Source: Russula earlei (Eukaryota; Basidiomycota; Agaricomycetes; Russulales; Russulaceae). From it: a stretch of DNA of 64,000 nucleotides. Below, one piece after another: positions 4,843 to 64,000 of this stretch; within the stretch, counting starts at the first letter, position 1, and each line of letters begins with the position of its first letter. The notes under the pieces are model-generated. The model saw only the letters and a list, made by a program, of their open reading frames with translations. It was not told the DNA's origin and ran no database searches. Both the position numbers and the translations under genes were made by a program. The stretch spans positions 17,555 to 81,554 of the forward strand of contig JAGFNK010000220.1 in assembly GCA_025769875.1 (NCBI GenBank), in the 5' to 3' direction.

Positions 4843-5726
4843 TGTTACACCATTTTCCTTTTATGTTTACCTCTTACCTTTTGCTATGGACTGCTTGCTT
4901 TCGTACGTCCCTTTGCTTACTAGTCTCATGATCTCTTACGTCTTGTGATCCCTTCTGTGTTATCATGTGATCCATACATGTCCAGGTAACACTGGATTGC
5001 TGTTACTTTCCCTTTGTTTGGTTCTCTTTCCATTTATATTCACTTCTTAGTTTCGACTGTGCAATGCTGTGCACCTACTGTGCAGCACAGTTACTTGGTT
5101 CTGACTCATTCATGGCCTCATTCCTATGACTCTTACTTATTATGACTCCTACTATACTAGTAGCACAGTCAAAGCGCAGCTACTTGCTGCACTTCTCCTG
5201 TATATATAAGCTCAGTACTTTGTGACCAAAGCCCTAAGCTTGGTCTCTTGTAGAATCCAACCTACTCTTGTCCAAACATATTCTCCTGCAACCCACTTCA
5301 CTCTCACAAACTTAAACCACAACTACCTCTCCATTTCATCAACTCTCAACACACCATCCACCATCTACTCTTCGCCTTTCCCTTCCTTCCCTAAGAGTCT
5401 CTCTTCACTCCCCTGAGAAGAGCTCTCCTCCTTTAAGACCTACCTTCCTCTACTCTCTCTGTGTTGTTCAAGGTCCCCGACAGACGTGAATGCATATAGC
5501 TAGTGGAACCAGCCCTAGTCTATCCCATTACAAACTTACCCTAGCTTCTCAATGGACCGAGTTGTACTAGGAAGGGTCTATTGGCCATAACCTGCTTAGC
5601 ATAAAACACTTCGACTGCTGCAGGGATCCTTACTCATTATACATGGGAACCAGCCCGTTTCTTGAACACCTCTCTATCATCAACTTGTCTTCCACTTGTG
5701 AACTGACATGGCTAGTTACCGTGACA
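4843..5726 (+). repeat. LTR of Gypsy family G (5' LTR)
   Basis: It starts TGTTACACC and ends CCGTGACA. It is followed within 2 nt by a self-complementary primer site and within 25 nt by a gag start. It contains a TATA box and a transcript-start motif (listed separately). The partner 3' LTR is not in the window, so the boundaries rest on the TG...CA ends and the primer site. The first ~55 bp also occur, inverted, at 24569-24623. Confidence 0.6.
5201..5246 (+). promoter_or_regulatory. TATA box and self-primer motif in LTR G
   Basis: TATATATAAG at 5201-5210. About 30 nt downstream, TAAGCTTGGTCT at 5235-5246 lies where transcription should start. It is the exact reverse complement of 5729-5740 just after the LTR. 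Confidence 0.6.
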
Positions 5727-5728
5727 TC

Positions 5729-5740
5729 AGACCAAGCTTA
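5729..5740 (+). other. Self-complementary primer-binding site, family G
   Basis: AGACCAAGCTTA, 2 nt after the LTR end, is the perfect 12-nt complement of the predicted transcript start at 5235-5246. No match to a tRNA 3' end is obvious. Confidence 0.6.
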
Positions 5741-5750
5741 ACATTTCACC

Positions 5751-6655
5751 ATGGCTTCTACCTCAAATATTCTTGCTATCCCCGAACCCTCTATCGAACC
5801 AGCTTCCTCATCTAACCCTCTTCAACACCAAACCGTCACTCGACGTAATCAAGACAACCTACCTGAACGTATCACTGGTAAAGCCTTTTGGCACCCCACT
5901 GAACCTGAAGTAGGATATTACCTCTGCATCAAAAACCTTTACCACCCTATCGAATATATCAACGGACGTTGGTATAAACTTGATAGATGAGAAGTTGGAC
6001 TTAACCTTGAATACGCCACTCACGAAGGCCTTGTTCTCAATAACAAAGAACACAGTTTAGGAACTTGGGATCAATCAGACCCCCAGTACCAACTCTTTCA
6101 ATACCAACCTTCACCCTCTCTTGGAAGGCATTGTTTATCTTCAGCAGAAGAATCCGAACGACCTTCCTCCCGACCTCGAACCAGACAACCTTCACCAAGG
6201 TTATCTCCCATACATCTAGCTGTAGAAGCCGCGCCAGCACCTGAACCACTTCCTGTACCACAAAGGATCTTTGGTAGCGCTCGCGTACCCACTCCTAGAC
6301 CTCCTACCCCTCCTACTCCATCTTCACCTCCTACTCCACCTCCTCCAGCTATGGCTGCCATAGTCCCAATCCCTTCTAATGGAGCGGTCAGGGGAAACCC
6401 ACCATCTATCTTTGATGGAGACCGTTCCCAATCCTCCAAATTCATGAGAGAGTTTGCCATCTTTTGCAATATGAATGATGAAAACTCCCTCTTCAACAAT
6501 CCTTATAGACGAGTTAACGCTTGTCTATCCTTTATAAGGGGCCCTAATGTGGACCATTGGGTTGACACTCAACTGGAAGCAGTCAATAATAGTGTCAACA
6601 CTCTTGGAGTACTCAGGACCGACGAAGCTCTATGGAACGACTTTAGAAATGCGTT
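5751..6655 (+). pseudogene. gag of Gypsy family G, truncated
   Basis: The reading frame opens at ATG 5751 and is coherent for about 300 codons apart from one in-frame TGA at 5988-5990. It has a W-H-P/W-Y-K N-terminal module (GYYLCIKNLYHPIEYINGRW), a Pro-rich linker (about 6230-6360), then a capsid-like region (NPPSIFDGDRSQSSKFMREF, CLSFIRGPNVDHWV, ALWNDFRNAFIAVF). The layout matches the gag of families A and C in this window. It is cut at 6655 by the TIR element that starts at 6658; the zinc knuckle and all of pol are missing. Confidence 0.7.
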
Positions 6656-6657
6656 TA

Positions 6658-7373: not shown

Positions 7374-7961
7374 TGTTAAGGCTCCAAAGTGCCTTAAATA
7401 AGATCAATGGTTGCGTCTATAAACGCATCCTACCAATGCAGATATGCTTGAGTCAAGCAAGCAATACTCGTGGAGGGGAAGGAGTGTTAGATCCTTCTAG
7501 AGTATGACAACAAGATGAGAGGGGCTCTGCAGATGGGGTAGGAGTCAACTGTTTGGGATTGGCAAACTAAGTCGAGCTTAAGGCTCAACTGTTTCTACTG
7601 GAGGCTTTATATAGCCCTACAGGGATAAGGTTCATACTACTGTAGTACTGGTTGGTGCTATAGAAGCAAAAGGCAGCTCATAGAAGCGAGGTTGCTTCTA
7701 TGTAAATGATCTCGGTGCTGGAAGCATTAAGTGCTTCCCCAATCAAGGAATCAACGTACGTGACGGTACAGGAACATCTGGGACAGAAGCAATGCTACTC
7801 ATTGCTTCTTCAGTACATCTTCTGAAAGATACGATCAACGCGCTCCGAATATGATATCAAGGAACATAAACGATCAAGATCTGACGCACGCATAATGCAA
7901 ACGGTGCAGTCCATAGTTCAGGTGTTCCGGCATCTTCCGGACCCCAAACCACTCGGTAACA
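7374..7961 (-). repeat. 3' LTR of element A
   Basis: 588 bp, TGTTAAGG...CGGTAACA on the plus strand. It matches 15425-16013 with scattered substitutions and 38258-38845 in inverted orientation. It is preceded in sense by a polypurine tract. Confidence 0.92.
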
Positions 7962-8002
7962 TTACCCCTCCTTCAGATTGGTGGTCCCACACACCAACGA
8001 TT

Positions 8003-9569
8003 CTAAAATTGAGTGGTGGGGTCAACGCCATCATCATCAAGGGGAGGAGGTGATGTGGTGAAGGTGTATCGGCCTTCTTCTGCTGCCTCATAGGCAGCCA
8101 ATGCTGAGGCCACTATCGCCTCTGACTCCTCAGCAGTGGCTGAAGGAGACATGATCTGTGGGAGTCTGTCAGAGTCCCTAGGTAACCTCCGGACTGGAGG
8201 TGTGTCTGAGCGAAGAGGAGTCGTAGTGAAAGGTTCTTGAAAGGTCCTGGACCCTTCTCCTTTCGCTACCTGCAAAATGCGCGGGTTAGCAATGTCCTCC
8301 CTCTCCTGGTCGGACTTCCTCTTCCTGCTCAGGTGTGCCTGTTCCCATTCTTGGTGGAAAGGGCATGATCTGATTGGTGTATAGGAACAATGATAGGGAG
8401 GCACTAGGCAATGTGAGGCAGCGTCTGCTGCCAGTTGGTCGTGGCAATACTGGTGGGGCAGTGGACAGTACTTGTTAAAATGTCCTACCTTGCCACAATA
8501 CTTGCATCGGTTCCTTTTCCTCCTCCCTTCTATCATGTTCAGCTGCTGAGGCTCCAGAATGAAGTCAGCCGTTGCAGTAGACGCTTCCCCACTGCTGCTA
8601 TAGGAATGGTAATAGATAGAGCTCTGGGGGGAAGGGTTTGGTGACGCTTCTGATCCTGCCCCTCCTCGAAGGCAGCATACCGGACATGGTTTGGAGGACG
8701 TTCATCTCCTCTTCCGAATACCCTTGCACTGTTGTAGGTGTGGGGCTGGCTGGTACTGGTTCTGGGTCAGAGGTAGCATACCCCTGAGCGATGTCTGCCA
8801 AAGGCAGCTGAGGGACGAAGATGGGTAGAGGGGGAGTGGGCTGCCCAGCTCGGTAGTTGGTGAGGAGTTCTTCAGCCCAGACACCTGGAGGGGTTTCTCC
8901 CTGGCTACAGCCTGCTTCAATGAACTCCCAACAACGTGAGCGTACTTTGGCTGCCGCCATTCTCTCCTTGGCTTCAGCCCTGTCTCTCTCTACTCCTCGC
9001 TTCTCAGCTAGGTACTTGCTGAGCTTGTAGCGCAGCTGCTTCTCCTCTTCCTCAAGCACCTTATAGTTAGCTTCCAGCGTCTCTTGTAAGGTGTAGAGAT
9101 GGTCCAAGCGGTAGAGTTCTGCCTGCAGCCCATAGTCGCCTAGCAGGTAGAGGGTCTGTCTCCAGCGCCCTTCGAACTGCCTCTCTGTGTCGAAGCAGTC
9201 TAAGTCATGTTCGTCTTGGCCATAGTTATAGAGGTTATAGCAAGGGGTGGCCTGGAGGATCTCGCCATAGTCTGCATGGCCTTCTCCATTCTTCCCCCTC
9301 ACTCTCGGCTCTCCCAAGGCAACGTCATAGGCCACATACCTGGCCGGTTTGTTGCCCCAAGTCATGCCATCAGGGATGTCAATCCCTGTGTGGTGTCTGT
9401 CAGCGTCCCATCGTACCCAAGGCTCTCCAGGGTGGGCATCCTGGGCAAGAGTGCTGGTGGGGGACGTCACATCCCAATCCCCAGGCTGAACGTCGACTTG
9501 GTCAGCAGGGGGTCCAAATTCGAGAGGACGCATATCTGCTTCTCCTTCTCCAGTGTTATGTTCATCCAT
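8003..9569 (-). pseudogene. ORF3 of element A: coiled coil plus zinc-binding domain
   Basis: An extra ORF between the pol stop (9626) and the 3' LTR. Its first part (9569-8598, 323 codons) carries a long charged helical segment around residues 150-215 (YKVLEEEEKQLRYKLSKYLA), a likely coiled coil. The frame shifts at a G-run near 8627-8640 and continues as 8536-8003 plus upstream codons. That part has a CCHC knuckle (C-K-Y-C-x4-H-x4-C) followed by a conserved PH..C....C.....H...C-like tail. Such an ORF is not part of the usual gag-pol set. A related zinc domain sits before the C-family LTR at 21460. Its role is unknown; nucleic acid binding is likely. Confidence 0.65.
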
Positions 9570-9625
9570 TCCTTGGAAGAAGGCAAGAAGGGAAGCATCG
9601 GGAGTGGTGATTTCAAGTGGCCCCT

Positions 9626-12600
9626 CTACACCAGAGAGGTCGGCTGGGGAACGATTTCATTAGTGGGAGTTTGGGACATTTGTGAGCGACGATATGGGGA
9701 TGAGGAAGTAGAGGGCATCTTTCGCTGGACTTTTATAACCCGTATGGCCGTGGGGTTCCTTCTGTGATATTCCTCTATTAGTCTAGACGCTTTGATGTTC
9801 TCTACTGGCTCCCAAGAGTCATGGGCTTCGGAGTACCCTTCCCACCGGACTTGATACTCCAGCTGTTTCCTCCTTCCAGTTCGTCTTGAACCTAAAATCG
9901 TTGCTACTTCATATTCCTCTTCTCCTTCCACCAATTCTGCTTCTGGATTGGTGTAGTTGGCCCCATGCTCCTCGGTTTCCTTGTAAGGTGTCAATAAGGA
10001 GGCATGAAACGCGTTATGGATCCTCCAGCGGCTAGGGAGATCCAATCTGTATGTCACCGGACTAATCACCTCCGTGATTTCAAAGGGCCCATATCGTTTT
10101 GGGCGTAGTTTCACTGTAGGATGTGTCGTTTTTAGGTTGGTGCTGTCGAGCCATACCCTTTCTCCTTTCTGATAAGGTTGGAAACTACTTCTTCGCTTCC
10201 ACATTAGGGAAGCGATCTTCATCGCTTCTTGTGCCTGTGATCTCGCTTCCTGGATCCGGACTTTCCAATTGTCTATTCTTGGTATCTTGCTTTCCCGATT
10301 TGGCTGGTGTGCCTTTGGGCGTAAAACCCATCCATAAGAAGAAAGGGGATTGTCTGGTTGTCTCTGAAACGTTAGAATTCATCGTGTATTGCACCAGAGG
10401 CAGCCAATCCACCCAATCGTCTTGTTGGTGGTTGCAAAAGATTCTTAGCGATGTTTCCATCGTCTGATTCGTTCTTTCTGATTGTCCATCTGTCTGAGGA
10501 TGGTAGGCAGTGCTGATATTCTGTTTGATATGCAGCTGGTCGCAAAGTTCCCTAATGAACTTGGAACTTATTAGTTTATCTCGATCGGATATGATCTTGC
10601 TTGGTACTCCCACAAATGGGAATATTCTGTCCTTGTAGAGCTGTGCTAGCTCTTCTGCGTCCATTTCTTCTTTGCAAGGAAGCAAGATGACGCCTTTAGT
10701 ACAATCGTGGTCAGTGACAGTCAATATACTGTCATATCCCTTCGACTTTCGGCAATTTGACCACAAAGTCCATGCTGACAGTCGAGAAGGGAGTAGCCCC
10801 TTCTTCTGGTGGAATGGGATACAAGGGAGGTCGATTTGGATGAGTGTTTGACTTGTTACTTTGGCAAATTGCGCATCCTTCCACATATCGATCGACAAAG
10901 CGTCTTATGGTGGGCCACCAGTAGTATCGCATCATTCCCAGTAATGTTTTAGCTTTTCCTGGGTGTCCTGCTGTGGGACTGTCATGATACTGTTCCAGTA
11001 AGGTCCTGTGGGTTCCTTCGTCGCCTGTAACCACCAAGGCTTCATTCTTCCACCATAAGTTATGTCGCTTCTCCAGTCGGTGTCTCTGTACCCAATCAAG
11101 TAACTTTAATCGGTGTCTTTCTTCCCCTTGTTGGTTCTTTATCCGTTCTTCCAATGCAGTAGTGTGCATTACTCGAATAAAAAGATGGTCAGGTAGCGCG
11201 ACCACTTCTTCTTTATCCCCTTGTCCATCGTCAAGGTCAGGTCTCCTTGACAGGGCATCTGCTTTATTCCTTGCCCCTGCCTGATGTTTCAATTCTAAGT
11301 CGAAGTCTGCCAAGAAGGTAATGTATCTTGCCACTCGACCATTTATTCGCTGAGGGTGTCGGTAATGCAACAGGTTCGCATGGTCTGTATAAACCACCAC
11401 CTTATGCTTTGCTCCCATGAGTAGGTGTCGCCAGTGTTTCAAGGCTCGCACCATGGCTAAGAACTCTTTGTCCCATATGTCGTAGTTCTTCTCTGCTTGT
11501 TTCAAGGCTGCTGAGAAGTAGCCTATTGGCCTCCTCTTTCCTTGTTCGTCCTTCTGGAATAATACTGCTCCAATGGCATAATTGGACGCGTCTACTTCCA
11601 GTTCAAAGGGTCGCTCCTCATCAGGATGGAGCAGGACAGGGTCAGAAGATACTATCTGGATAAGTCGTTCCAGAGCATCTTTGCATTCTTGGGTCCATTC
11701 AAATGGCACCCCTTTCTTTGTCAAGGCAATAATGGGTCGAGCAATCTGACTGAATCCTCGAATGAAAGCCCTATTGTAACTGAGGACTCCCATGACTTTG
11801 CGCACTTCGTGTACGTCCTTGATTTCCCGAGGCCAGTCCGTGATTCCTCGGACTTTGGAGGCCTCAATCTTCATCTTCCCTTCGTCTATGTCCCATCCTA
11901 GCATGGTTAGTTTTCGCACCATGAACTGGCACTTCTGGGGTTTCAGGAAGTATGACTTCTTCTGCATCAGCGTGAGTAGTTCGTTGACACATTGCTCATG
12001 GATTTCTAATTGTTCAGGACTGTCCCCCGTGGCAATTCCAAAGTCATCCAGATAGTTGACCGTGTATTCTGCCCATCGGTCCAGCCAGTCACCGAAGTCT
12101 CTTCTCATCAGCCTAGTAAAGAAGGCTGGTGCGTTCTTGAGCCCAAAATACATGACGTTGGGCAGGTAGGTTCCATATGGCATCTTGAAGGCTGCCTTCC
12201 AGCGATCTCCTTCTGCCAGTCGCACATTATTGTATCCCCATCGTATATCGAATTTGGAGAAGACCTTTTTCCCTCGGAGTCTTTCCACCTCTTGTTCCAG
12301 ATGTGGTAAAGGTTCATTGTCTCGTCTGGTCCACTGATTTAGTCGTCGATAGTCTACAATGATCCTCTTCTCCTTGCTGTCCTTCTTGCCAATGAAGAAC
12401 ACTGGAGATGTGTAGCTGGATGGACCTGGAGTGATGTATCGCTTCTCTACTTCATCAGCTAGGAATTTCTTGAGGTATTCTCGCTCATCTCGTGTAAGGG
12501 GGTACACTTTGCAGTTTAGTTCCTTTGGTGCGTCAGGTAACAGCTCTATCTGCATGTCTGGTTCCCTTGGTGGTGGGAACCTCTGGGACTTCTCTTCTGA

Positions 12601-13245
12601 GAAGACATCTGCAAAGCGGTGGAATTGCTTTGGAACATTGGCAAGGGGATCCTCTCCTTCCTGTGGTTTAATCGACTGCTGGGCCCACTTCTGAGCAATA
12701 GTCGTCTTTTGTAGGTAAATGGCTTCCCCTTTCTTCAATTGTCGGTTTTCATCTCTTGCTCGCTTTTGGAGTTTTGCGACATAGAGATCCAGGTACTTGT
12801 ATCGAGCAGTCTCAATCTGTACCGTTCCTTCCATCAGCTGTCCTTTCTTCCAGTTGATGGTGGGGTCGAATTCATATAGGAAGGGATATCCCAGGATGAC
12901 CCGATCCGTTCCTAAATCTGTGAGATAGAACCTTTGCAAGCTCTCCTTCTCCTTGTATCGGACGCGAAGCCAGCAGTAATGGGTGAGTTCCCCTTGCTTA
13001 TTCTGGGTTCCGTCGACGTTTCGTACTACCATGGGTTCATGTAGTTCTTGTTTCCCAATCTTCAGTCTTTTCCAAGCTGAGTGATCGATGAAGTTCTCTG
13101 TTGCTCCACTGTCCTAGTAGAGCAGATTCCTCGGCCGTTGTGTGTGCAGTGACGAAAGTGAACGGAATATTCATAGCATTCAGTCTTCTAATGTACACTT
13201 GCAACACACTATTCTTCCTAAGCCAGGCCGTCGACTTAGGTGTTC
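9626..13245 (-). pseudogene. pol of element A
   Basis: It is entered from gag by an apparent -1 shift at 13249-13255. The order is: aspartic protease (DSGATENFID at about 13090-13113), reverse transcriptase with Y-L-D-D (near 12050), RNase H (about 11340-11640), integrase HHCC zinc finger (near 10880-10990), integrase core (D in VTDHD, D in IISDRD, E in the SERTNQTME region) and a chromodomain (about 9770-9930). Breaks: a 1-nt insertion directly before the protease Asp creates TAG at 13114-13116, and frame changes occur near 10735 and near 10265. With these it cannot make full-length product. It ends at TAG/TAA-type stop 9626. Confidence 0.88.
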
Positions 13246-15138
13246 CTAAAAACCCTGTTCCATCAGTTCTTCCAACAAGTCCTCCTTCTGTTTGGTGGAC
13301 ATCTTCTTTATGGACGCCGAGGAGGAGCTCTTGTTATAGGTAGGAGGAGGAGATGTAGATCGCCCGGAGACAGTGCTTTCATTTCCACTATCCCCTGAGT
13401 CGTCCTCCTTCTCTGTTTCCAGAGCTCGAGCTTTCCCTTTGTCCCTTGGGTTACTTGATTTCTTCTTGACTCTGTCCTTGTCAGGACAGTTCCGACTGAT
13501 ATGTCCTGCTTTCTTGCAGATGAAGCATTTCCCTTCTGCTAGCAGTTTCTTCTTTTCCTCTGTCAGAGGAGGACGTCGCTTGGTCCTTGCTGCATCAGTG
13601 GATACTGAGTCCACTTCCATTGCATTCGGATCTCTTTGGTTTCGCCTTTTCCCAACCTGTAGGGATTTCATGCGATTTTCCCTGGTGGTCAACGATCCAC
13701 CTCCAGATCCAATATTGGCTTTCATGAGCTGGTCTCTGGCCTGTTCTTCCCTGGCAGCATTGATCCATGCTCGTAGATCATTGATGGCAGGTATATCTCT
13801 GACTGGTCGATTGTAGATTCGTCGCACCAGCCAGGTGATTAGTCCAGCCTTGTAGGCTTCTACTGCTCCTGGTGAATTCTGGTCCCATCCTGCTTTACTG
13901 AGCAGAACAAGGAACTTGCTGGTATAGTCATCCAGCGATGCTGCTTTAGACATGGACAGTTGTTGTAGCTCCATGAAAGCGTCTTCAGGCTCTGTGGTGT
14001 CTTTGAATTCTCTGAAGAAGTCATCCACAAATTCGGTCCAAAAGAGCATGTCAGTTGGATCTAGCTGCACTGGTGCATAGGGAGACGGTGGGTCCCCATT
14101 TCTTTTTGCTTCTACCAGGTTCGTTTGATTGACCACCCATTCATGCACTTTCTCTCCTTTGATGTAGGTGAGAGCTAGGGCTACTCGTTTCATTGGAATA
14201 GTCATGGTCGGGTTGTCGCTGTTGAGCAGATTCCATAGATTGAAATCCTGGACAAAGTACTTCGTCTTTTTCCTGTCTCCTTTGAAGACTTCAGGAGGGT
14301 CTCCTTTTAGAGATCCGTTGCCCCCATGGGGGCCTGGTGCCGGCTGAGGTGCCAGATTCGCCCCTGGTCCTACAGGAGGTGCTGCTGGTGGTCCCCCTGC
14401 TGGAGGGCCTCCTCCAGGTGGGCCTCCTCCTGGTACTGGTGGACCTCCGGGTCCGAAGGGGACTCCTCCACCTCCAGGTGGTCCTCCTGCTCCAGGTGGA
14501 CCACCTCCAGGGTTTACTACGATGGTGGGCCCTGCTCTTCCACCTGCTGTCTGGGTGGCAATGGTGGCTGTCTGCGTTGCTGCAATGGTAGCCATTTCGA
14601 CTGATTCTTCTGGCTCTTCAACGATTGTTGGTTCAATGGGTGAGACGTGTACTGTCTGCTCTAGTCTTTCAGCTAGCTCCAATACTTCTGGTGCTTCTGC
14701 TTTCTGATCTGTAGTCGGAGGGTCCGACTGTTCTGTTTCTCCACTTGATGACTTTTGTATCAATGGAGCTGGGTCGTCTACTACTGGGCTTCTGGGTTCC
14801 CAATGAGTAGTATAAGGATCTGTCTTGGTTCCTAAACCTAGGACCTTATATTCGTCGATGTCTTCGTCCTCTCCTGCGTAGGGACGTCCTTTGTGGTAAT
14901 CAACAAAGTACCACTGATCGTTGATGTATTCACAAGGAAGGTAGCTTCCTTTGTATCGGACCTCGTATCTGTTAGGCCCTTCCTGGTCTGCCCAACACCA
15001 GATGGCAGTTCCTTTGATTCCTGAGGGTAGATCGTCCCTCTCTCTAGCTTTGAACCAACCAAATTTGGTTCCTTGCTTTGATTTCTGGTTGAACTTTACG
15101 CGTATGCTATGTTCTCCTTCGATTTCCAGTTTGTCCAC
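13246..15138 (-). CDS. gag of element A
   Basis: 630 codons, intact. The N-terminus has a W-x-W-A module like that of family G (GTAIWCWADQEGPNRYEV). Residues about 200-260 are Gly/Pro-rich. The capsid domain follows (KYFVQDFNLWNLLN, HEWVVNQTN, DDYTSKFLVLLSKAGW). A CCHC knuckle at about residues 536-549 (C-F-I-C-K-K-A-G-H-I-S-R-N-C) binds RNA. It ends in MEQGF-stop exactly at a GGGTTTT slippery site. The product should form the virus-like particle. Confidence 0.9.
   Translation of the reverse strand: MDKLEIEGEHSIRVKFNQKSKQGTKFGWFKARERDDLPSGIKGTAIWCWADQEGPNRYEVRYKGSYLPCEYINDQWYFVDYHKGRPYAGEDEDIDEYKVLGLGTKTDPYTTHWEPRSPVVDDPAPLIQKSSSGETEQSDPPTTDQKAEAPEVLELAERLEQTVHVSPIEPTIVEEPEESVEMATIAATQTATIATQTAGGRAGPTIVVNPGGGPPGAGGPPGGGGVPFGPGGPPVPGGGPPGGGPPAGGPPAAPPVGPGANLAPQPAPGPHGGNGSLKGDPPEVFKGDRKKTKYFVQDFNLWNLLNSDNPTMTIPMKRVALALTYIKGEKVHEWVVNQTNLVEAKRNGDPPSPYAPVQLDPTDMLFWTEFVDDFFREFKDTTEPEDAFMELQQLSMSKAASLDDYTSKFLVLLSKAGWDQNSPGAVEAYKAGLITWLVRRIYNRPVRDIPAINDLRAWINAAREEQARDQLMKANIGSGGGSLTTRENRMKSLQVGKRRNQRDPNAMEVDSVSTDAARTKRRPPLTEEKKKLLAEGKCFICKKAGHISRNCPDKDRVKKKSSNPRDKGKARALETEKEDDSGDSGNESTVSGRSTSPPPTYNKSSSSASIKKMSTKQKEDLLEELMEQGF
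13249..13255 (-). promoter_or_regulatory. Probable -1 ribosomal frameshift site
   Basis: The last gag codons read CAG GGT TTT TAG, forming the X-XXY-YYZ heptamer G-GGT-TTT immediately before the stop. Slipping back 1 nt continues as TTA GGA ACA CCT AAG into the protease leader without a stop until the later indel at 13114. Confidence 0.6.
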
Positions 15139-15361
15139 TCGCCACTGCCTTTCCTAGGGAGTCGGGACTTGTCTGCCCTCTTACCACTGTCTATGCCAAT
15201 GACAGTAGGGGTCTTTACAGAAGTATGCGTGTGTCCAACCGTGCTGCTCGTCGAGAGTCACGTAGTACACCTTCTTCTTGTCGTGGAGAGGTCTGTATAG
15301 ATTCTCCCCCTTGACTACTTCAGCGTAGGTTGCTGACCATATGATGACTAGATCCTAGTCT
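15139..15361 (-). other. Short conserved leader module of element A
   Basis: Between the 5' LTR and the gag ATG one minus-strand frame encodes ATYAEVVKGENLYRP ... YFCKDPYCHWHRQW, closed by TAA at about 15181-15183. No ATG precedes it in frame and a TAG lies just upstream. The same module occurs twice in the leader of element D (35330-35720), so it looks like a real conserved unit (Cys/His-rich end: C-K-D-P-Y-C-x-W-H). Function unknown. Confidence 0.5.
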
Positions 15362-15412
15362 TTAGGCTTCCTGCCTATTTCTGGTTCGCTTTCACAGCGA
15401 TGTCTGTGATAG

Positions 15413-15424
15413 AAGCTCGACTTA
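15413..15424 (-). other. Self-complementary primer-binding site, family A
   Basis: In sense TAAGTCGAGCTT, directly touching the LTR. It is the perfect 12-nt complement of the predicted transcript start (15619-15630 on the plus strand). Confidence 0.65.
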
Positions 15425-16013
15425 TGTTAAGGCTCCAAAGTGCCTTAAATAAGATCAATGGTCGCGTCTATAAACGCGTCCTACCAATGCAGATATGCTT
15501 GAGTCAAGCAAGCAATACTCGTGGAGGGGAAGGAGTGTTAGATCCTTCTAGAGTATGACAACAAGATGAGAGGGGCTCTGCAAATGGGGTAGGAGTCAAC
15601 TGTTTGGGATTGGCAAACTAAGTCGAGCTTAGGGCTCAACTGTTACGACTGGGGGCTTTATATAGCCTTACAGGGATAAGGTTTGTACTACTGTAGTACT
15701 AGTCGGTGCTATAGAAGCAAAACATGGCTCATAGAAGCGAGGTTGCTTCTATGTAAACGATCTCGGTGCTGGAAGCATTAAGTGCTTCCCCAATCAAGGA
15801 ATCGACGTACGTGGCGGTACAGGAACATCTGGGACAGAAGCAATGCTACTCATTGCTTCTTCAGTACATCTTCTGAAAGATACGATCAACGCGCTCCGAA
15901 TGTGATATCAAGGAACATAAACGATCAAGATCTGACGCACGCATAATGCAAACAGTGCAGTCCATAGTTCAGGTGTTCCGGCATCTTCCGGACCCCAAAC
16001 CACTTCGGTAACA
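15425..16013 (-). repeat. 5' LTR of element A
   Basis: 589 bp. It contains a TATA box (sense TATATAAA, 15657-15664) and, about 30 nt downstream, the self-primer motif at 15619-15630. The right edge cuts into the integrase gene of element C1. Confidence 0.92.
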
Positions 16014-18594: not shown

Positions 18595-18640
18595 TCAGCT
18601 GGCAGGGCTTTCATGTGTGCTACCATGGAAGCTGGTTCTT

Positions 18641-19207: not shown

Positions 19208-20594
19208 TTCTTCTTCCTTAGCCAGTTCTGGCATTGATTCGGTGATGTGGGCCTTAGAAGTGGTGGGAACCATGTTTTTGGGGCATTCCTGGCTGAGGTG
19301 GCCTTTCTCCCTGCAATGGAAGCAATGCCCTTCTTTTGCCAACTGTTTCCTTTCTTCTTCAGTGACCTTCTTAAAGTTGGACTTGGCGGTGTCCACTTGC
19401 ATTCAGTCAGGGTGATGGGACTTGTGCTCCGAAGGGGAGTGTGTAGTCTTCTTTCCTTTGAGTTTCTCCCTGATAGTGACAAATCATCAATATTGTCTCC
19501 TGGCTTCCTCCTTCCATTCCTGGAGAGTGGTGGGCCAGGTGTCCCTGTTTAGGATTGCGCAGTAGTGGCCACTTTTGAGCCCATTTTTGAAGCTCTCAAT
19601 GGTGATTACGTCCATCTCTGGCCATCCTGTTTTAATAAGGAGTTGTTCAAAGGTGGAGATGTAGTCATCAAGGGAATCCTTCATTTCAAGTTTGACAAGA
19701 GCTGCCTGGGCATCTTCCTTTTTGGCTGTGTTGGTGAATTTGAATGTGAAGTCAGTGATGAAATTGGTCCACAGGACTTCGTCGTTTTGGTTGATGGGAT
19801 TTTGGGCCCTAGTTATTTTTTCTCTAAGGGCCATTACTTGTGAGTTTACCCAATCTTCTACCTTTTCCCCTTGAATGTAGGAAAGAGCTAGGATGACCCT
19901 TTTAGAGGGGTCCCTCATGACCACCTTGTTGTCGTTGAGTCCCCAGTAAAGGTTGAACTCCATGAGGAATCTTTTAGTTTTGTTTCTTTCCCCTGTGAAG
20001 ACTGTGGGTTCTTTGCCGCTAAGGGATCCATTGGTTCCTTGGGCCTGTGGTGCTATGACTGGTTGCACTGGCAACTTGAGGGGCTGGAGCAGCTTGTGGG
20101 GCTTGTGCTGCCCTAGTGGGTTCTGGGGATTCTGAGGGTGTTCAGGGGTTCTGGTGGTTCGGTGGATTCCTGGGTTTCAGGGAGGTCCTCTGGTTCTAAC
20201 GCAGGGGATTCAAAGGGTGTCTGAGTCTCAGCAGTATTTTCTGGCTTGGGGGGGTTGCCTTCTGTAGAAGAGGCTTCTGTTTCTGATGGGGGCTCATAAA
20301 GAGGGTCATTTTCCCTCCAGTAGCCTAGTCCAAGGCTGTTTCTGATAAGTTCTAGGTCTTGATGGGTGTAGAGCTGTCCTCTTCTGAGTTGTAGCTCGAA
20401 ACCAGCGGTTGTTGATGAATTCAACAGGTAGTTCTTCATTGTTTTCAGTGGTAATGTAGCAGAGGAAGGTCCCAAGTGGCAGTTCCTACGATGTGTTGAG
20501 GAAGATCAGGGGAGGGTCTAGGTTGGACGTGGATCCAGCAGTTTGGTGGTAATTTGAGGTTGATCTCCAGAATGGAGTAAGAAAGCTTAGCTTG
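19208..20594 (-). pseudogene. gag of element C1
   Basis: The open frame starts directly at the end of the 5' LTR. An N-terminal module (LRRGQLYTHQDLELIRNSLG) is followed by a Glu/Pro/Thr-rich linker, capsid region (FTGERNKTKRFLMEFNLYWG, YIQGEKVEDWVNSQ, SLDDYISTFEQLLIKTGWPE) and a CCHC knuckle (C-F-H-C-R-E-K-G-H-L-S-Q-E-C, about 19290-19330). TGA at 19403-19405 replaces an arginine. Frame changes occur near 20110 and 20430. No ATG is visible near the start in either C1 or C2. Confidence 0.8.
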
Positions 20595-21198
20595 TGTTAC
20601 GGCATTGCGGCCATAAGAGCATTAGCTCAGGGTTCAGTGGGGCCAAGTCCCTGTGACTTGGTTCAAAGGTTCAGTGGGGCCGGCTCAAGGAGACTGATTC
20701 AGAGGTTTAGCAGTCTCAAGACTAAGTCAAGGATGACCTAATCTGCAGACAGAGTTGATCTCCTGGTTTTACAGAAGAGGAGGATGATGAGGGAGAAGCA
20801 GAGGAGGAAGAGGAACATGAAGGTTCCTTGTGATGAGGTCAAGTCAAGCAGAGTATAAGCCAGCACAACACAAGTTGTGATTGAGAGACAGTACAGGGCA
20901 AAGGGATGCAACAGAAAAATGGGACAAAGCTTAGCTTAGGGTATTCCCCAGCTTCTACAGGCACTTAAATACTGTATGTAGCAAGGCTGTACAGTACTAT
21001 ATGTGGAACAATAGATAAAAGTGAGCCAACAGCAAAAGAGACTCAACAATAGATAAAATAATAGATGAAACACAATAAGTGAAACAATAAGGGCCATCAG
21101 CATCAAGGGATGAAACCGTAACCAAGGGGATGGGGGTGAAAGTAAAGAACAATAAGGAGTAGTTTGGGGATGAACTGAAAGAGGGGTAGATCACAACA
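20595..21198 (-). repeat. 5' LTR of element C1
   Basis: 604 bp, sense TGTTGTGATCTACCCC...GCCGTAACA. Matches the C2 LTR at 62899-63532 and, inverted, the LTR at 21460-21981. Contains several (G)TTTCA(C/T) repeats in sense. Confidence 0.8.
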
Positions 21199-21459
21199 CA
21201 TCATCATCAACTCCGAAAGCGACAACATATTTGCAAACATTGCAACATTAGGGGTCATTGGAACAAGGACTGTAACAAACCTCACACCAATTGTAGCAGA
21301 CAAGTGGACTGCATCCTCGGAAGGACTCACCGAAGTTACAGAGGCTTCTGTCCTAGAGCAGTGGGGTCTCAGAATGCATGGCTAGAAGTTGAAGGCGATG
21401 AACTCCATGAGTTGGGTCCTAAGACCAATTAGTTTGGAGAACCAAGTGTGGGGGCATGA
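21199..21459 (+). pseudogene. Zinc-knuckle tail of an ORF3-like protein
   Basis: One plus-strand frame reads C-K-H-C-x4-H-x4-C, then NKPHTNC, a second Cys/His group (C..GRTHRSYRGFCP) and stops at TAG about 21414-21416. Spacing and order are those of the zinc domain ending ORF3 of element A (CKYCGKVGHFNKYC..PH..C). It is followed by a G-rich tract and the C-family LTR at 21460, as expected for the 3' end of a plus-strand C-family element whose front part is gone. Confidence 0.55.
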
Positions 21460-28754: not shown

Positions 28755-30546
28755 GTCTCCTGTCTTAAACTGGTACTTGGGGATGTGGGAGCTGGGCTGT
28801 CCCATCAATGCTGTGGCATATCGGAGTGAGGCTGCAACCTCCTCTCTGAGTAGATCTATTTGTTTCAGATGTTCCAAGATGGAAGGGAACTTGGTATTGA
28901 AACTAAGAGGGGGGGCAAATGTTGGATTGAAGCCATACCATATTTCAAAGGGGGCTTTGTGGGTCATGCTATGGGGGCGTGCATTATGAGTAAACTCCAT
29001 GAATGGGACTAGTTCAGCCCAGTTATCCTGTTGGTGGTTACAGAAGATTCTCAAATACTGTTCTAGTTCTTGGTTGACTCTTTCTGTTTCCCCATCTGAC
29101 TGAGGGTGGTATGCGGTGCTAAGGGAGGACTTAACATTTAGTTTCCTCCATAGTTCTTGGGTAACTTTGGCTGCGAACTGGGGACCTTGGTTGGAGATGA
29201 TTTGAGTTGGTAACCCTACTCGTCTCCACACATTGTTCATGCTTAGGGAGGCAGTATCTTCTGCAGTGATGGTCTTGTGACACAGGGAGATGATGGCAGC
29301 TTTACTAAAGTGGTCCACAACTACTAGTAGGCTGTCATACCCTTGAGAGAGGGGTAGGTCAACAATGAAGTCCATGGTGATGCTGTCCCATATCTTGCCC
29401 ACTGGGGTGATAGGGACCAGGGGTACGGTTGTTGTTGGGCGGTTCTTATGGCTTATTAGTTCATAGGTCTTCCATTGACCTGGGTGGCCAGTGGCTAAGG
29501 AATCATGGTGTACTTTGAGGACCATACGCCTTAGTGCATCTGACCTTGGGACATAGACTTTTTCTTTGAAGAGGATCAATCCATCTTCTAAGTTCCAGTC
29601 CTGCAAGCCTTTTGTAAGGTGACGGGGGCCATTCTTTAGGATGGTTTTAAAGGCTGTTTTGACCTCTGGGTCATAGTCTTTGCTGGAACGTAATTGTTTT
29701 CTTAGTTCGAAGTCTCCTATGGGTTCTGTTGTGGATGATCGGGTTGCTCTAATTTTAAAACATTGTTGGTCCAGCAGGACCTTTGCATCATTTTCATGCA
29801 TCCCCTCTTTATAGTCTGGCCGCCTGGACAGACTGTCGGCTTTGTTCTGGGTTCCTGGGTGGTGTATAATGTGGAAATTGAATGCGCTAAGCAGCAAAGC
29901 CCATCGAGCTTGTCGTCAGGTGAGTTTCTGTTTCGTCATGAAATATGTGAGGTTGTTGTGGTATGTCCACAACTCTACTGGGTGTTTAGTGCCTTCTAAG
30001 TAATGTCAGAAATGCCAAAGCGAGGAGACTATAGCCAGGAGCTCTTTGTCATAGATCATATAGTTCCTCTGAGCAGGGTCTAATGATTTGGAGAAATACA
30101 CCACTGGTTGGTACCGGTTTAGTTCATCTGGTTGTTCTAAAATGGAGCCGACTGCAAAGTCGCTTGCATCACAGATCAAGCGGAACTGCCATGAATGGTC
30201 AGGAAGCACTAAGACAGGTGCATTTGTGAATGCTTCAATGAGGATGCAGAAGGCTTTTTCCTCTTCAGATCCCCAATGAAATGGGGGATCCTTCTTGGTT
30301 AGGTTGAACAATGGTCGGGCCAGATGGGAATATTGGTGTATGAAACATCTGTAGAAGTTACAAAAGCCTAAGAAGGCTTGAACTTTGGTGATATTAGTAG
30401 GATTTGGCCATTGTGTTATGCCTACTAGTTTGTCCAAGTCCATTGATATGCGTCCTTGGGAAATGTGTATGCCTAGATAGCTGATGGACATTTGACGGAA
30501 AGCGCACTTTTCTGGCTTGAGGTATAAGTCATGTTCCTGTAGGATT
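28755..30546 (-). pseudogene. pol of element D: RNase H and integrase part
   Basis: In sense: the end of RT (SISYLGIHISQGRISMDL), RNase H (FRLICDASDFAVGSILEQPD, DKELLAIVSSLWHF), connection (FNFHIIHHPGTQNKADSLSR), integrase zinc finger (HHDSLATGHPGQWKTYELI, partly decayed) and integrase core (D in TMDFIVD, D in ISNQGPQ region replaced by N/Q, E in GETERVNQELEQYL). TGA codons at 30006-30008 and 29916-29918 replace arginines. Ends at the Harbinger insertion. Confidence 0.85.
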
Positions 30547-30549
30547 TTA

Positions 30550-32156: not shown

Positions 32157-32159
32157 TTA

Positions 32160-38257: not shown

Positions 38258-38845
38258 TGTTACCGAGTGGTTTGGGGTCCGGAAGATGCCAGAACACCTG
38301 AACTATGGACTGCACTGTTTGCATTATGCGTGCGTCAGATCTTGATTGTTTATGTTCCTTGATATCACATTTGGAGCGCGTTGATCGTATCTTTCAGAAG
38401 ATGTACTAAAGAAGCAATGAGTAGCATTGCTTCTGTCCCAGATGTTCCTGTACCGCCACGTACATCGATTCCTTGATTGGGGAAGCACTTCATGCTTCCA
38501 GCACTGAGATCATTTACATAGAAGCAACCTCGCTTCTATGAGCTGCCTTTTGCTTCTATAGCACCAACCAGTACTACAGTAGTACGAACCTTATCCCTGT
38601 AGGGCTATATAATGCCTCTAGTAGAAACAGTTGAGCCTTAAGCTCGACTTAGTTTGCCAATCCCAAACAGTTGACTCCTACCCCGTCTGCAGAGCCCCTC
38701 TCATCTTGTTGTCATACTCTAGAAGGATCTAACACTCCTTCCCCTCCACGAGTATTGCTTGCTAGACTCAAGCATATCTGCATTGGTAGGACGCGTTTAT
38801 AGACGTGACCATTGATCTTATTTAAGGCACTTTGGAGCCTTAACA
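38258..38845 (+). repeat. Solo LTR of family A
   Basis: 588 bp, TGTTACCGAG...GAGCCTTAACA, opposite to element A. Flanked by the perfect duplication TGGAG (38253-38257 and 38846-38850). It interrupts the D leader; removing it rejoins GRLH with YLFNSSIH in frame. Confidence 0.95.
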
Positions 38846-39423: not shown

Positions 39424-39433
39424 AGACTGTCCA
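39424..39433 (-). other. Self-complementary primer-binding site, family D
   Basis: In sense TGGACAGTCT, 2 nt after the 5' LTR. It is the exact complement of AGACTGTCCA at the predicted transcript start (plus strand 40203-40212), which lies about 30 nt downstream of TATATAA (40241-40247). Confidence 0.6.
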
Positions 39434-39562
39434 GATGTCAAGACTCACTGTTGAACTATCCAGTTCAAGAGCGAGGAGTAAGCTCGAAGACGAGTCGATA
39501 GACATCCAAGACGGCATGGGCAAGGAGTAGAGTCCAAAGCAGTAACAAATACCAGAGAGGGA

Positions 39563-40092
39563 TGTTGAGATTATCATTGATTTGGGTGATTTGGTATGTT
39601 ACCACTACCCTGGGACGTTGTGATGTAATCACAGCTCAGACGCGTTGACACGTCGGTTACACGGACCGGGCATCACCGGCTTAGCTCAGGCGCATGACGC
39701 GTCGGATCATGCAGTCCGGCTCAGCTCTCATGCTGAGATCTGCATTACTTACAATGATAAGTTAATTGATGACAATCGGTAGCTACTAATGACTGATCCT
39801 TGTATGATCTTTGTTTCTTATTGATGGTAGCTACCTGCAGTGTACTTAGAGACGCTCTGGAGTACTTAAGAGCATCGTATTTCGATAGATCACTTCAGTC
39901 TTGTCTTACACAATACTGAAGTGAGTACTTACTGTTTCCTATCTTATCTCTCGCATTTAATCACGCGTTGTAGATATCTTTTGATAGGTATTACTGAATT
40001 ATAGTCTTGTCTTACACAATACTGAAATATCTTTTGATAGATCTTAAGGATCTTATCGCTCTTATCATAACCTGCGCCCATCTGCTTCAACA
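39563..40092. repeat. Solo LTR (family H)
   Basis: 530 bp, TGTTGAGATT...GCTTCAACA, flanked by AGGGA on both sides (39558-39562, 40093-40097). Intact D-type LTRs (e.g. 48643 on) lack it. Contains CG-rich CGCGTTGACACG-type repeats near 39635-39720. Confidence 0.9.
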
Positions 40093-40651
40093 AGGGATAG
40101 TTACTGGTAGAGTCGAGCAGGTACGCAGGGAAGAGGCCAGGATAGTCACAAGGGGACGGTCCTTAAAGGAGTATCCCAGGGATGGAGCGTGCCATAAACA
40201 AATGGACAGTCTGAGGACTGTCTGCTACTTTATTGAGTGCTTATATACTACAAGAGAACTGCTAAATAGGGAACAAGTCCTAACCTTGTTATCAAGCACA
40301 ATAGAGTGATGAGTAAGAAGTCAGAGTGTGCTTACTGAGCATGCTCAGTCATGCTCAGTAAGCTGCTGAGTAAGAAGGCTTCTCTTGATGAGTAAGAGCC
40401 TTCACTGTCCACTGCTTTAGTACATGTGCGAGCACCTGATTCATTTTCTGTTAGTTAGTTTAGGGCCGGTCATTTGAGGACTTGTAGTTTGGTTTAGGGA
40501 ATAGTGTTATCTTATAAGGCCCTTATATAGTTCTATTAGGGTCCTTAGAGTCGACCCTAATACTTCTATTAAGGTCCTTAGTATTGCCTTATAGTTTGTT
40601 CTATAGTTATTAGAGTTAGTCTAATAACACATTGTAGGGTCCTTGATACTA

Positions 40652-44339: not shown

Positions 44340-44634
44340 TGTTGGATATACAATCTGTCATGTGGATTAATCCACTTCACTGTACCCAAGGCTAGGTAGC
44401 TCAGTGGTTAGAGCACCTGGTATATATCTGGGAGGTCCTGGGTTCAATCCCCAGTCTGGCCATTTTCTTAATTGCACCAGGATATAGGGAATCATGTGAG
44501 TGCATGTCAACCCCCTCCTCTGAGGTCCCCAGGTTGGGTCACATAGTGTTGAACCCACAAGTCAGATCCAAGAGGGTGGCAATGACTAAGCACCTCCTCT
44601 GAGGTCCCTCTATCTGTGGTTGCATTTCACAACA
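44340..44634 (+). mobile_element. 295 bp TG...CA element containing a tRNA cloverleaf
   Basis: It begins TGTTGGATATAC, ends TTTCACAACA and is flanked by GGACA on both sides (44335-44339, 44635-44639). It carries a tRNA-like sequence at 44390-44462 and, behind it, two copies of CCTCCTCTGAGGTCCC about 80 bp apart. There is no poly-A tail, so it is not a normal SINE. Its size and ends fit a solo LTR of a small LTR element (TRIM type). Confidence 0.7.
44390..44462 (+). tRNA. tRNA-like cloverleaf, anticodon TAT
   Basis: A 73-nt cloverleaf folds fully: acceptor GGCTAGG/TCTGGCC (7 pairs with two G-T), D stem GCTC/GAGC, anticodon stem CCTGG/CTGGG, loop TATATAT, T arm CTGGG-TTCAATC-CCCAG, discriminator A. 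A-box (TAGCTCAGTGG) and B-box (GGTTCAATCC) are present. Position 33 is A, where tRNAs have T, so a functional Ile-tRNA is doubtful. It lies inside a mobile element. Confidence 0.6.
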
Positions 44635-44744
44635 GGACATCTACCGACTCATCTTTGAACTCATCCCTTGCTCTTGAACAGGATTGTTCAACAGTGAGTC
44701 TTGACACATGCTATATCATTTATCAATCCTGTGAAGTCCTCGAG

Positions 44745-49219: not shown

Positions 49220-49285
49220 TGTTATTGTCGTTTTCATGTGACCTTGCACTTGCCATTTTTGGATGTCATTTCGAGTGCGAAATTA

Positions 49286-49880
49286 AAACTGCTATATCTC
49301 AACAGTTTCTTAACAGATTGCCTTGAAACTTTGACAGCAGAACATTATATACTGTATCTATGTGCAGCTAAAATATGGGAGCCTAATATTTAGTTCTTGA
49401 AATGTCGATTTTCAGGTGCTGACATGAGTGCAAAACTTTGAACTGCCATATCTCAACTGTTTCTGAATCAATTGACTTGGAACTTCGACAGTGGGATCTC
49501 ATGTACTGTATCTAGGTGCAGCCCAAGAGTTGGGGTCTAATTCTCTGTTCTTGAAGTTTTGATTTTTGGGTGCAATCTGAGTGTGAAATTTCGAACTGCC
49601 ATATCTCAACCATTTCTCAATGGATTGCCTTGAAACTTGGACAGTGGGATCTCATGTAATGTGTCTAGGTGCAGCCAAAGAGTTGGTGTCTAATTATCAG
49701 TTCTTGAAGTTTCGATTTTTGGGTGCCCATCTGTGTGCGATTTTTCGAACTGTCATATCTCAACCATTTCTCGATGGATTGCCTTGAAACTTGGACAGTA
49801 GAACCTCATGTACTGTATCCAGAGGCAGCCAAATAATTGGTTTCACTCGTTGAATTTTCATGTTTTGGGGTGCTGATCCC
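49286..49880. repeat. Tandem repeat, about four 154-bp units
   Basis: The core AACTGCCATATCTCAAC recurs at about 49286, 49441, 49594 and 49748. Each unit also carries a GCCTTGAAACTT(G)GACAG box and a TACTGTATCTA(G)GTGCAGCC box. The mirror array in the right arm (about 59590-60070) has three units. Confidence 0.8.
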
Positions 49881-50099
49881 AAGCATGATAAAATTACATT
49901 ATCCCTACAGCTGAGCACATGATATGGTACAACTATTTATGAAGTAGCACGCAAGAAGGGCATGTTCATGGGACCGGACGAGGACTGATGGAAGAGCGAT
50001 AAGACAAAATCGAAACGATGATGCGAGGCGTGTGTCAAGGCAGTGATTGCAATCGCGTGTGAATGGGCGAGGCAAGGCAATGGTGGGCTGCGAGCCCTC

Positions 50100-50620: not shown

Positions 50621-50778
50621 TCGTTTTGTCAACTTTTCATTTTGCTCTCCCACACAGTGTACCACAGTATTGTATGTGTGTGGTCTCAAGCGAGACCTGG
50701 AACTTGCATGTCACGGGTTCCCTCCTCTGCAGCAAGTTCAGATGCATGCCGATGGGCATGTCCAAGCAGGCATCTCAC

Positions 50779-58297: not shown

Positions 58298-58310
58298 TAA
58301 GGCAATGCCG

Positions 58311-59589: not shown

Positions 59590-60070
59590 GGGATCAGCAC
59601 CCCAAAATGTGACAATTCAATGAGTGAAACCAATTATTTGGCTGCCTCTGGATACAGTACATGAGGTTCTACTGTCCAAGTTTCAAGGCAATCCATCAAG
59701 AAATGGTTGAGATATGGCAGTTCAAAATTTCACAGTCAGATTGCACCCAAAAATCGAAACTTCAAGAACAGAGAATTAGACCCCAACTCTTTGGCTGCAC
59801 CTAGATACAGTACATGAGATCCCACTGTCGAAGTTCCAAGTCAATTGATTCAGAAACAGTTGAGATATGGCAGTTCAAAGTTTTGCACTCATGTCAGCAC
59901 CTGAAAATCGACATTTCAAGAACTAAATATTAGGCTCCCATATTTTAGCTGCACATAGATACAGTATATAATGTTCTGCTGTCAAAGTTTCAAGGCAATC
60001 TGTTGAGAAACTGTTGAGATATAGCAGTTTTAATTTCGCACTCGAAATGGCATCCAAAAATTGCAAGTGC
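59590..60070. repeat. Tandem repeat, three units, right arm
   Basis: GTTGAGATATGGCAGTT cores at about 59706, 59859 and 60012, a 153-bp period. One unit fewer than in the left arm. Confidence 0.78.
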
Positions 60071-60099
60071 AAGGTCACATGAAAACGACAATAACACAA

Positions 60100-61862: not shown

Positions 61863-62454
61863 TGTCAAGACTCACTGTTGAACAATCCAGTTCAAGAGTG
61901 AGGGGTTAGTTCGAAGACAAGTTGATAGACGTCCAAGACAGCATGTGTGAGAAGTAGAGTCCAGAGTAGTGACAAATACCAAAGAGGTATGGTTACTGGC
62001 AAGGTCGAGCAGGTATGCAGAGAAGAAGTCAGAATAGTCACAAGGGGATGGTCCTTAAAGGAGTATCCCAGGGATGGAGAGTGCCGTAAACAAATGGACA
62101 GTCTGAGGACTGTCCGTTACTTTATTGAGCGCTTATATACTACAAGAGAACTGCTAAATAGGGAACAAGTCATATCCTTGTTATCAAGCACAATAGAGTG
62201 ATGAGTAAGAAGTTGGAGTGTGCTTACTGAGCATGCTCAGTCATGCTCAGTAATCTGCTGAGTTAGAAGGCTTCCCTTGATGAGTAAGAGCCTCTAATGT
62301 TCATGTGTTTACTGTCCTAGTATGCATGCAAAGCACCTGACTCATTTGCTGTTAGTTAGTTTAGGGCCAGTCATTTGAGGACTTGTAGTTTGGTTCAGGG
62401 AAGTTTGGTTGTCTATAAGGCCCATTATATAGTTCTATTAGGGTCCTTAGAGTC
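61863..62454 (-). repeat. Partial D-type LTR
   Basis: TGTCAAGACTCACTG to GGTCCTTAGAGT, same orientation as the D LTR. It retains the TATA and TGGACAGTCT motif (about 62095). Cut at 62454 by the next LTR-like sequence. Confidence 0.82.
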
Positions 62455-62898
62455 TGTCAAGACACGTACTGCTGATCACTAAGGACTCAGGAGCAGGTGG
62501 GCAAGGGTCAGAACAGACAGTACACGGTGTAAACAGCGTTGAACAAGAGGATGAGCCAAACGACTAGGAGATACCAGATGGGGACTGGTATGTGTTGCAA
62601 AAGGCAGAGGCGAAGAGTAGAGGCCAGTGCAGCGAGGGGCTTTAAACAAGGCAGTCATTGAAGAGTACCTTGAAGACGAGGGAGGACTTTAGACTGAGCG
62701 GTCACAGGGGAGTACCCAGGAAGATGAGAGTATCACAAATGGACAGTCTGATGACTGCCATGCTTCATTGGGGCTTATATACAGTGTACAGGGTCGATTA
62801 CAAAGAACTGGAACTATTCCAGACCCTTTGGTACCATCCAATAGGACTACAGAGGCATAAACTTGCTTGTGTCAAGTTTCAGGCTTACTGAGCGCATT
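62455..62898 (-). repeat. Diverged LTR related to family D
   Basis: Starts TGTCAAGACACGTAC. In the middle it keeps the family layout: GGAGTACCCAGG, AATGGACAGTCTGATGACTG and TTATATACAG in the same order as D-type LTRs (62710-62780). The far end is lost at the C2 LTR. No gene seen. Confidence 0.5.
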
Positions 62899-63532
62899 TG
62901 TTGTAAATTACCCCTTTATCGGTTCGTCCAATCATTATTCTTCTTGTTACCCTTGTCTCCGTGGCTACTGTTTCACCCCTTGACGGTGATTCCCTATTGT
63001 TTCATCTATTGTGTTTCACTTGTTGTGTTTCACCTATTGTGTTTCACCTATTGTGTTTCACTTATTGTGTTTCACCTATTGTTGAGTTACTTTTGCTATT
63101 TGTCTACCTTTATCTATTGTTCCGCTTATGGTACTGTACAGCCTCGCCACATACAGTATTTAAGCGCCTGTAGAAGCTGGGGAATGCCCCAAGCTTAGCT
63201 TTGTCCCATTTCCTGTCGCATCCTTTGCCCTGTATACTCTCTGAATCACAACTTTGCTTGTGCTGGCTTTTACTCTGCTTGACCTAAGCACACCTCAAGG
63301 AACCCTTGTGTTCCTCTTCCTCCTCTGCTCCTCTCTCATCGTCCTCCTCTTCTGTAAAAACCAGAAGATCGACTCTGTCTGCGGACTGAGTCATTGTCTG
63401 ACTCAGCCTTGAGACGCTAAACCCTTAAACCGGTCTCCTTGAGCCGGGCCCACTGAACCCTTGAACCAAGTCACAGGGACTTGGCCCCACTGAACCCTGA
63501 GCTAACGCTCTAACGGCCGCGACGCCGTTACA
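62899..63532 (+). repeat. 5' LTR of element C2
   Basis: 634 bp, TGTTGTAAATTACCCC...GCCGTTACA. It contains five TTGTGTTTCA(C/T)-type repeats (63007-63075), TATTTAAG (63157-63164) and the transcript-start motif AAGCTTAGCTT (63191-63201). CpG-rich compared with the C1 LTR. Confidence 0.82.
63157..63201 (+). promoter_or_regulatory. TATA box and self-primer motif in LTR C2
   Basis: TATTTAAG 63157-63164; 27-34 nt downstream AAGCTTAGCTT (63191-63201) is the exact reverse complement of AAGCTAAGCTT at 63534-63544, 1 nt after the LTR. Confidence 0.65.
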
Positions 63533-64000
63533 CAAGCTAAGCTTCCTTACTCCATTCTGGAGATCAACCTCGAGCTACCATCGAATCGTTGGGTCCGCGT
63601 CCAACCTAGACCGTCCCCAGACCTCCCTGAACACGTCGTAGGAGCTGCCACTTGGGACAGCTTTCACACCTTCCTCTGTTACATCACCACTGAAAACGAC
63701 GAAGAACTACCAGTCGAATTCATCAACAACCATTGGTTCGAATTACGACTTAGGAGAGGACAACTCTACACTCATCTAGACCTAGAACTCCTCAGAAACA
63801 GTCTTGGATTAGGCTACTGGAGAGAAAACGACCCTCTCTATGAACCACCGTCAGAATCAGAAACCTCTTCCACAGAAGGCAACCCCCCGGAACAACAAAA
63901 CACCGTTGAAACTCAGACACCCTTTGAATCCCCTGCACTAGAACCAGAGGACCCCCCTGAAAACCAAGAACCCATTGAAACCTTAGAACTTAACCCGAAG
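63533..64000 (+). CDS. gag of element C2, N-terminal part
   Basis: Open from the LTR end to the window edge (156 codons) with no stop: YSILEINLELPSNRWVRVQP, TFLCYITTENDEELPVEFIN, LRRGQLYTHLDLELLRNSLG, then a Glu/Pro/Thr-rich linker. Matches the start of C1 gag, but C1 is frameshifted here. There is no ATG before about 63839, and TAA at 63503-63505 closes the frame upstream, so translation would need a non-ATG start, a spliced leader or another arrangement. It continues beyond 64000. Confidence 0.75.

Follow-up and report, generated by a model that had tools for sequence, protein, structure and literature searches.

Candidate self-priming Ty3/gypsy retrotransposon families in a 64-kb window of the Russula earlei genome

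Elements of the window and their complementary pairs

We analyzed a stretch of 64,000 nucleotides from Russula earlei (contig JAGFNK010000220.1, positions 17,555 to 81,554, forward strand; hereafter the window), which is dense in nested repeats, and followed four families of long terminal repeat (LTR) retrotransposons in it, named G, A, D, and C2, as candidates for self-primed reverse transcription. Each carries in its LTR a motif that is the perfect reverse complement of a site next to the LTR end, over 12, 12, 10, and 11 nt, respectively. An earlier reading of the letters alone (the sequence-only reading) had claimed exact complementarity for all four pairs, and direct comparison bore this out.

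The 5' LTR of G (TGTTAC...GTGACA) lies at 4843-5726 on the plus strand; its start is common to five of six compared copies, solo copies end in GTGACA, and a 5-bp target duplication was read by eye in the G copy L035. The TATA box, recognized by sequence, is at 5201-5210 (plus strand), and 34 nt further on the putative self-primer, the presumed mRNA 5' end, at 5235-5246 (plus) is complementary to the primer-binding site at 5729-5740 (plus), which is preceded by a 2-nt spacer, TC. An ATG found just after the G site (5751-5753, ACCATGGC) is replaced by ACG in many of the other G copies, so gag may start elsewhere or many copies may be inactive.

The A element, a chromovirus, occupies 7374-16013 (minus strand). 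Its reading frames, though interrupted, encode gag, reverse transcriptase (RT), RNase H, integrase (IN), SH3_Tf2-1, and Chromo domains, and its two LTRs are 96% identical. Its 5' LTR is at 15425-16013 (minus), the putative self-primer at 15619-15630 (minus), and the primer-binding site, with no spacer, at 15413-15424 (minus). LTR termini are TGTTAC...TTAACA, also in a solo copy at 38258-38845 that has TGGAG on both flanks; unlike this solo copy, the A element is flanked by TCGTG and CTCCC, with no target duplication.

The D LTR occupies 39436-40650 on the minus strand (5' limit approximate), with the putative self-primer at 40203-40212 (minus) and the primer-binding site at 39424-39433 (minus), again behind a 2-nt TC spacer. 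It is split by an inserted repeat of ∼530 nt (∼39563-40092) that occurs alone elsewhere, and its motif-site distance is therefore larger than in uninterrupted D LTRs. In C2 the LTR ends at 63532, the putative self-primer is at 63191-63201 (plus), and the primer-binding site, after a 1-nt spacer (C), is at 63534-63544 (plus). An older relative, C1 (∼20480-21200, minus), keeps 10 of the 11 pairs as read by eye from the alignment.

The motif had been placed about 30 nt downstream of the TATA box, and the spacing is indeed 32-35 nt: 34/32 nt in both G and A, 35 nt in D, and, for C2, 34 nt from TATTTAAG as measured in the copy L086. The site had been described as lying just after the 5' LTR, which is right as to position, but only in A is it flush with the LTR. 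We infer a primer of 11 nt starting with AAG in G, A, and C2, although the exact match extends to 12 nt in G and A; the Tf1 primer is 11 nt.

Pfam domains of Ty3/gypsy pol (RT, RNase H, and IN) were found in A, C2, and D', the last a family related to D by its pair (see below); G has RT and RNase H in the stretch covered. A chromodomain was matched in A (52 bits), C2 (49.1 bits), and D' (28.6 bits, 26 of 53 positions), and these three are chromoviruses. RT identities are 49% for A-C2 and for D'-G, and 37-41% for the other pairs. A protein search gave 5280 matches, and nearly all of the 120 listed are unnamed or "hypothetical," one being from Lyophyllum shimeji; among solved structures the best match is Ty3 Gag-Pol. 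Between its primer-binding site and gag, D' has ∼3 kb with several open frames (L106:41-3300, the first of 312 amino acids), which have distant protein-level counterparts in the D element of the window; the two frames tested gave no Pfam match.

Copies across the genome and related families

We searched the 66.6-Mb assembly (1374 contigs), which gave at least 43 G, 40 A, 67 D, and 41 C2 matches, with only the best candidates scored. The loci read were 30 for G and 30 for A (the window copy included in each), 20 for C2, and 17 for D. The LTR motif is unchanged in 97 of 97 loci (G 30/30, A 30/30, C2 20/20, and D 17/17, the D copies being solo LTRs). A G site is present in 25 of 30 loci, 24 times exactly and once with a terminal change, and the other five loci are solo LTRs or are broken at the LTR end. 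The A site is exact in 27 of 30 loci, and the remaining three share one C-to-T change at a CpG that leaves a G-U pair; the C2 site is exact in 19 of 20 copies. Mismatches in G, A, and C2 are confined to the site, as decay would give. Conservation of the motif relative to the rest of the LTR was considered as further support and set aside: the motif is invariant, yet 6-33% of equal-sized windows are equally conserved, and this invariance adds little alone because the copies are too alike.

A word made of the D LTR end plus site occurs 460 times genome-wide with at most one mismatch, whereas its reversed control gives 0. Two of these 460 places, L112 and L113, were read, and both belong to a different LTR family, D', whose motif, 30 nt past a TATAAG, and whose site are identical to those of D. 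A de novo scan of 112 sequences plus L112 and L113 recovered the four known codes and added two families, H (two keys) and I. H pairs TAAGCTTGTTCT with AGAACAAGCTTA at loci L024 and L109 (one base shorter in L109), and I pairs AAGTCGAATCT with AGATTCGACTT at the de novo locus L044. Eight other single matches (L029, L030, L032, L035, and four in the window) do not have the GACAT junction and were taken as background. The primer codes are AAG-CTTGG-TCT, AAG-CTTGT-TCT, AAG-TCGAA-TCT, and AAG-TCAAA-TCT, plus those of A, C2, and D; the claim that motif and site differ from family to family yet match within each was upheld by the exact pairs over copies.

BLASTN alignments of the G LTR to two H copies are confined to the primer (23 and 28 nt, E 4e-5 and 1e-6) and to the LTR end plus site (19-20 nt, E 0.006 and 0.002). 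The D and D' LTRs align over 23 nt at the primer (E 1.7e-6); other matches, including a 10-nt LTR end, had E values of 0.1 or worse. By these alignments, otherwise unrelated LTRs (G/H and D/D') have the primer in common and, less strongly, the end of the LTR.

G and H differ by one compensated base pair. With this base left free, the G/H pattern matched 376 sites and 1166 primers genome-wide, and controls gave 0. Linkage was scored for 33 sites among the matches listed, in the stretch common to both lists (to C29), and 21 of them have a listed primer 270-489 nt upstream. Among the matches listed, these linked copies comprise 15 with T in the primer and A in the site, six with G and C, and none mixed. 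For I, patterns in which the five central bases could vary (one of them only in part) matched 75 sites and 65 primers, with two matches for each control; 52 of the 75 sites were considered, and 13 link to a primer, 10 of them exactly. The exact pairs fall into two compensated states, six TCAAA/TTTGA and four TCGAA/TTCGA. One TCAAA/TTTGA pair has the 129-nt spacing of the TCGAA copies, and from this it looks as if both sides had switched; the switch is at a CpG, and deamination could be involved. The primer patterns of both G/H and I required YTGT behind the primer and fixed outer primer bases, and the counts represent few independent events, the copies being related by descent. The check for compensating changes in other copies, suggested by the sequence-only reading, thus found them between G and H and within I. 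Its statement that motif and site have coevolved stands in part: the G/H difference and the two I states are compensated, but within G, A, D, and C2 there is hardly any variation.

Probable self-priming and the alternatives

By analogy with Tf1, transcription of these elements would start ∼30-35 nt after the LTR TATA box, at the motif, and the first 10-12 nt of the mRNA would fold back and pair with the complementary site that follows the 5' LTR. RNase H of the element would then cut the mRNA behind the folded 5' segment, and the freed segment would prime minus-strand synthesis. Transcript start, cleavage, and priming are all carried over from Tf1 here and are predicted for the Russula elements.

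Folding of six of the seven leaders is consistent with this scheme. In the minimum-energy fold, the primer:site helix is complete for G, A, C2, D (folded without its insert), D', and H, with a mean pair probability of 0.89-0.98. An auxiliary duplex of the Tf1 "pretzel" kind stands out in G when the comparison is made with the 100 nt that directly follow the primer (z -4.25); both sides of the G duplex are nearly invariant, so there is no covariation to judge it by. As a weaker idea, a UGU 2 nt past the primer, opposite the ACA of the LTR end across a 2-nt spacer, could act as a clamp that fixes the cleavage point. By eye, this arrangement is present in G, H, I, D, and D'; C2 needs a bulge to form it, and a UGU in this position is missing from A.

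The inverted pair might instead form a long-range RNA hairpin that acts in the regulation of mRNA translation, packaging, or export and has no part in priming. Compensated changes and folding would fit this too, as they show only that the pairing is kept. However, one arm lies 0-2 nt from the end of the LTR, the point from which the minus strand has to be synthesized, and the other is placed 30-35 nt past the TATA box; both positions hold in all seven families (G, H, I, A, C2, D, and D'), and a mere hairpin needs neither. We regard such a hairpin as improbable.

Priming by cellular tRNAs, with the LTR complementarity incidental, seems to us a shade less probable still. Two points speak for it and count against self-priming: the D site starts with TGG like tRNA-primed sites, and the tRNAs read cover 30 of the 63 Rfam tRNA matches in the genome (18 distinct 3' ends, some from a repeated tRNA-Ile-like group). 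Among these 30 tRNAs, however, the 3'-anchored fit to the six sites was at best 6 of 10 (D) and no more than 5 for the other five, and the longest complementary runs were 5-8 nt. A pattern of T-arm plus AGACTGT, made for D, had 0 matches genome-wide. The sites of G, H, I, A, and C2 do not start with TGG, and the site covaries with the LTR. A comparison of the sites with tRNA 3' ends had been proposed along with the self-priming idea, and it yielded no fit among the 30 tRNAs read.

In the window at 44376-44640, inside a D-like LTR, a tRNA-Ile(TAT)-like stretch (44390-44462) is followed by ∼180 nt, and seven of the tRNA matches read are 92-99% like it. Large groups of equal-scoring tRNA matches suggest that this repeat is a tRNA-derived short interspersed element.

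The chance background was estimated by a loose scan of both strands for a TATA box followed by a 10-mer whose complement recurs further downstream, close to CA. On a first-order Markov null this gave a mean of 1.0 match per 64 kb (20 resamplings). The real window gave extra matches beyond the four pairs, mostly in inverted repeats, and C2 escaped the scan owing to its TATA word. When window positions were sampled as mock sites, the arrangement was present at 21 of 17,996, inverted-repeat positions being counted together with the rest. That the pairs arose by chance, or by choice among the many inverted repeats of the window, is hardly credible: loose scans do yield further single matches taken as background (the eight of the de novo scan), but the arrangement is rare at sampled positions, the pairing persists over copies, and it recurs in families H, I, and D'.

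Two further repeat structures were observed in the window. A nearly perfect 1.6-kb palindrome lies at 30546-32160, with 616-nt inner arms that are 100% identical and with internal repeats. Arrays of a ∼154-nt tandem repeat, mutually inverted, adjoin D-like LTRs at 49243-49844 and 59630-60073.

We concluded that G, A, D, and C2 are very probably Ty3/gypsy elements that self-prime reverse transcription in the Tf1/sushi manner, because of the exact pairs, the low background, their persistence, the pair shared by D and D', the families H and I, the covariation, the tRNA misfit, the folds, and the chromodomains. The Tf1/sushi assignment made from the letters alone is favored by the misfit to the 30 tRNAs read and by the covariation between related families. 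Several observations weigh against it, in addition to the two that favor tRNA priming. The placing of the mRNA 5' end at the motif is an assumption. The leader fold of I does not contain the primer:site helix (mean pair probability 0.001), and the auxiliary duplex does not stand out in G when compared with the whole interior (z 0.94), nor in any of the six other families. Mismatches occur in five of the 75 G, A, and C2 loci that have a site, and the 17 D copies fetched, all solo LTRs without a site, provide no test of the D site. Finally, there is no listed primer in range for 12 of the 33 G/H sites and for 39 of the 52 I sites, and three of the 13 linked I pairs are inexact (TCCAA/TTCGA, TCGAA/TCTAA, and TCATA/TTTGA).

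Implications and comparison with known self-priming elements

As an alternative to tRNA priming, self-priming has been worked out mainly in fission yeast and is also known from fish; the families described here are probable new members of this known mechanism. At least six families with such self-complementarity (G, H, I, A, C2, and D/D') coexist in a single genome, with different primer codes and with hundreds of LTR-site junctions (460 for D/D' and 376 for G/H). Their natural compensated changes are evolutionary evidence for the helix that is independent of mutagenesis, and the collection provides material for asking how primer and site stay matched while both change. One tentative answer, which we think somewhat more likely to be wrong than right, is that every cycle renews the site from the primer, plus-strand synthesis copying a primer still joined to the minus strand. 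The Tf1 self-primer is reportedly not removed (Atwood-Moore et al. 2006), which would fit such rewriting. A primer mutation in the LTR would then reappear in complementary form in the site, with no need to select a second mutation, and one genome could hold many primer/site codes on related elements. Reverse transcription could by itself transfer the primer sequence to the site, and the compensated changes then need no selection to explain them.

The literature listings showed no paper whose title concerns self-priming in mushrooms, which does not prove that none exists, with subscription papers largely outside the scope of the search; a term search of the text available for PMC3248453, on fungal LTR elements, gave no mention of primer sites. 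According to excerpts of the sources, self-priming is common in Tf1/sushi chromoviruses of fungi and vertebrates (PMC10085805, PMC4600332, PMC6317226), and it has been predicted for most Tcn1-clade elements of mosses and club-mosses (PMC10085805, PMC6317226), while for SM-Tcn1 the part of the paper available reports that neither tRNA priming nor self-priming was found (PMC2864245). Self-priming has been predicted, again in excerpt, for the TAR/Houba/Osr-1 Ty1/copia elements of plants (PMC6317226), but these belong to another superfamily, whereas A, C2, D', and G have RT and RNase H of the Ty3 type. The closest likeness is to Tf1/Tf2 of Schizosaccharomyces pombe, Tj1, Tosmo1-3, and Tcry1, which, in the portions of the sources available, are chromodomain Ty3/gypsy elements with a site complementary to the mRNA 5' end (PMC10085805, PMC4600332), an arrangement predicted for the families of the window. 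Unlike the Tf1 pretzel, auxiliary duplexes are present here at best in G; and unlike in the Tf1/Tf2 group, the LTR-site spacers are 0-2 nt and the primer differs among families of one genome.

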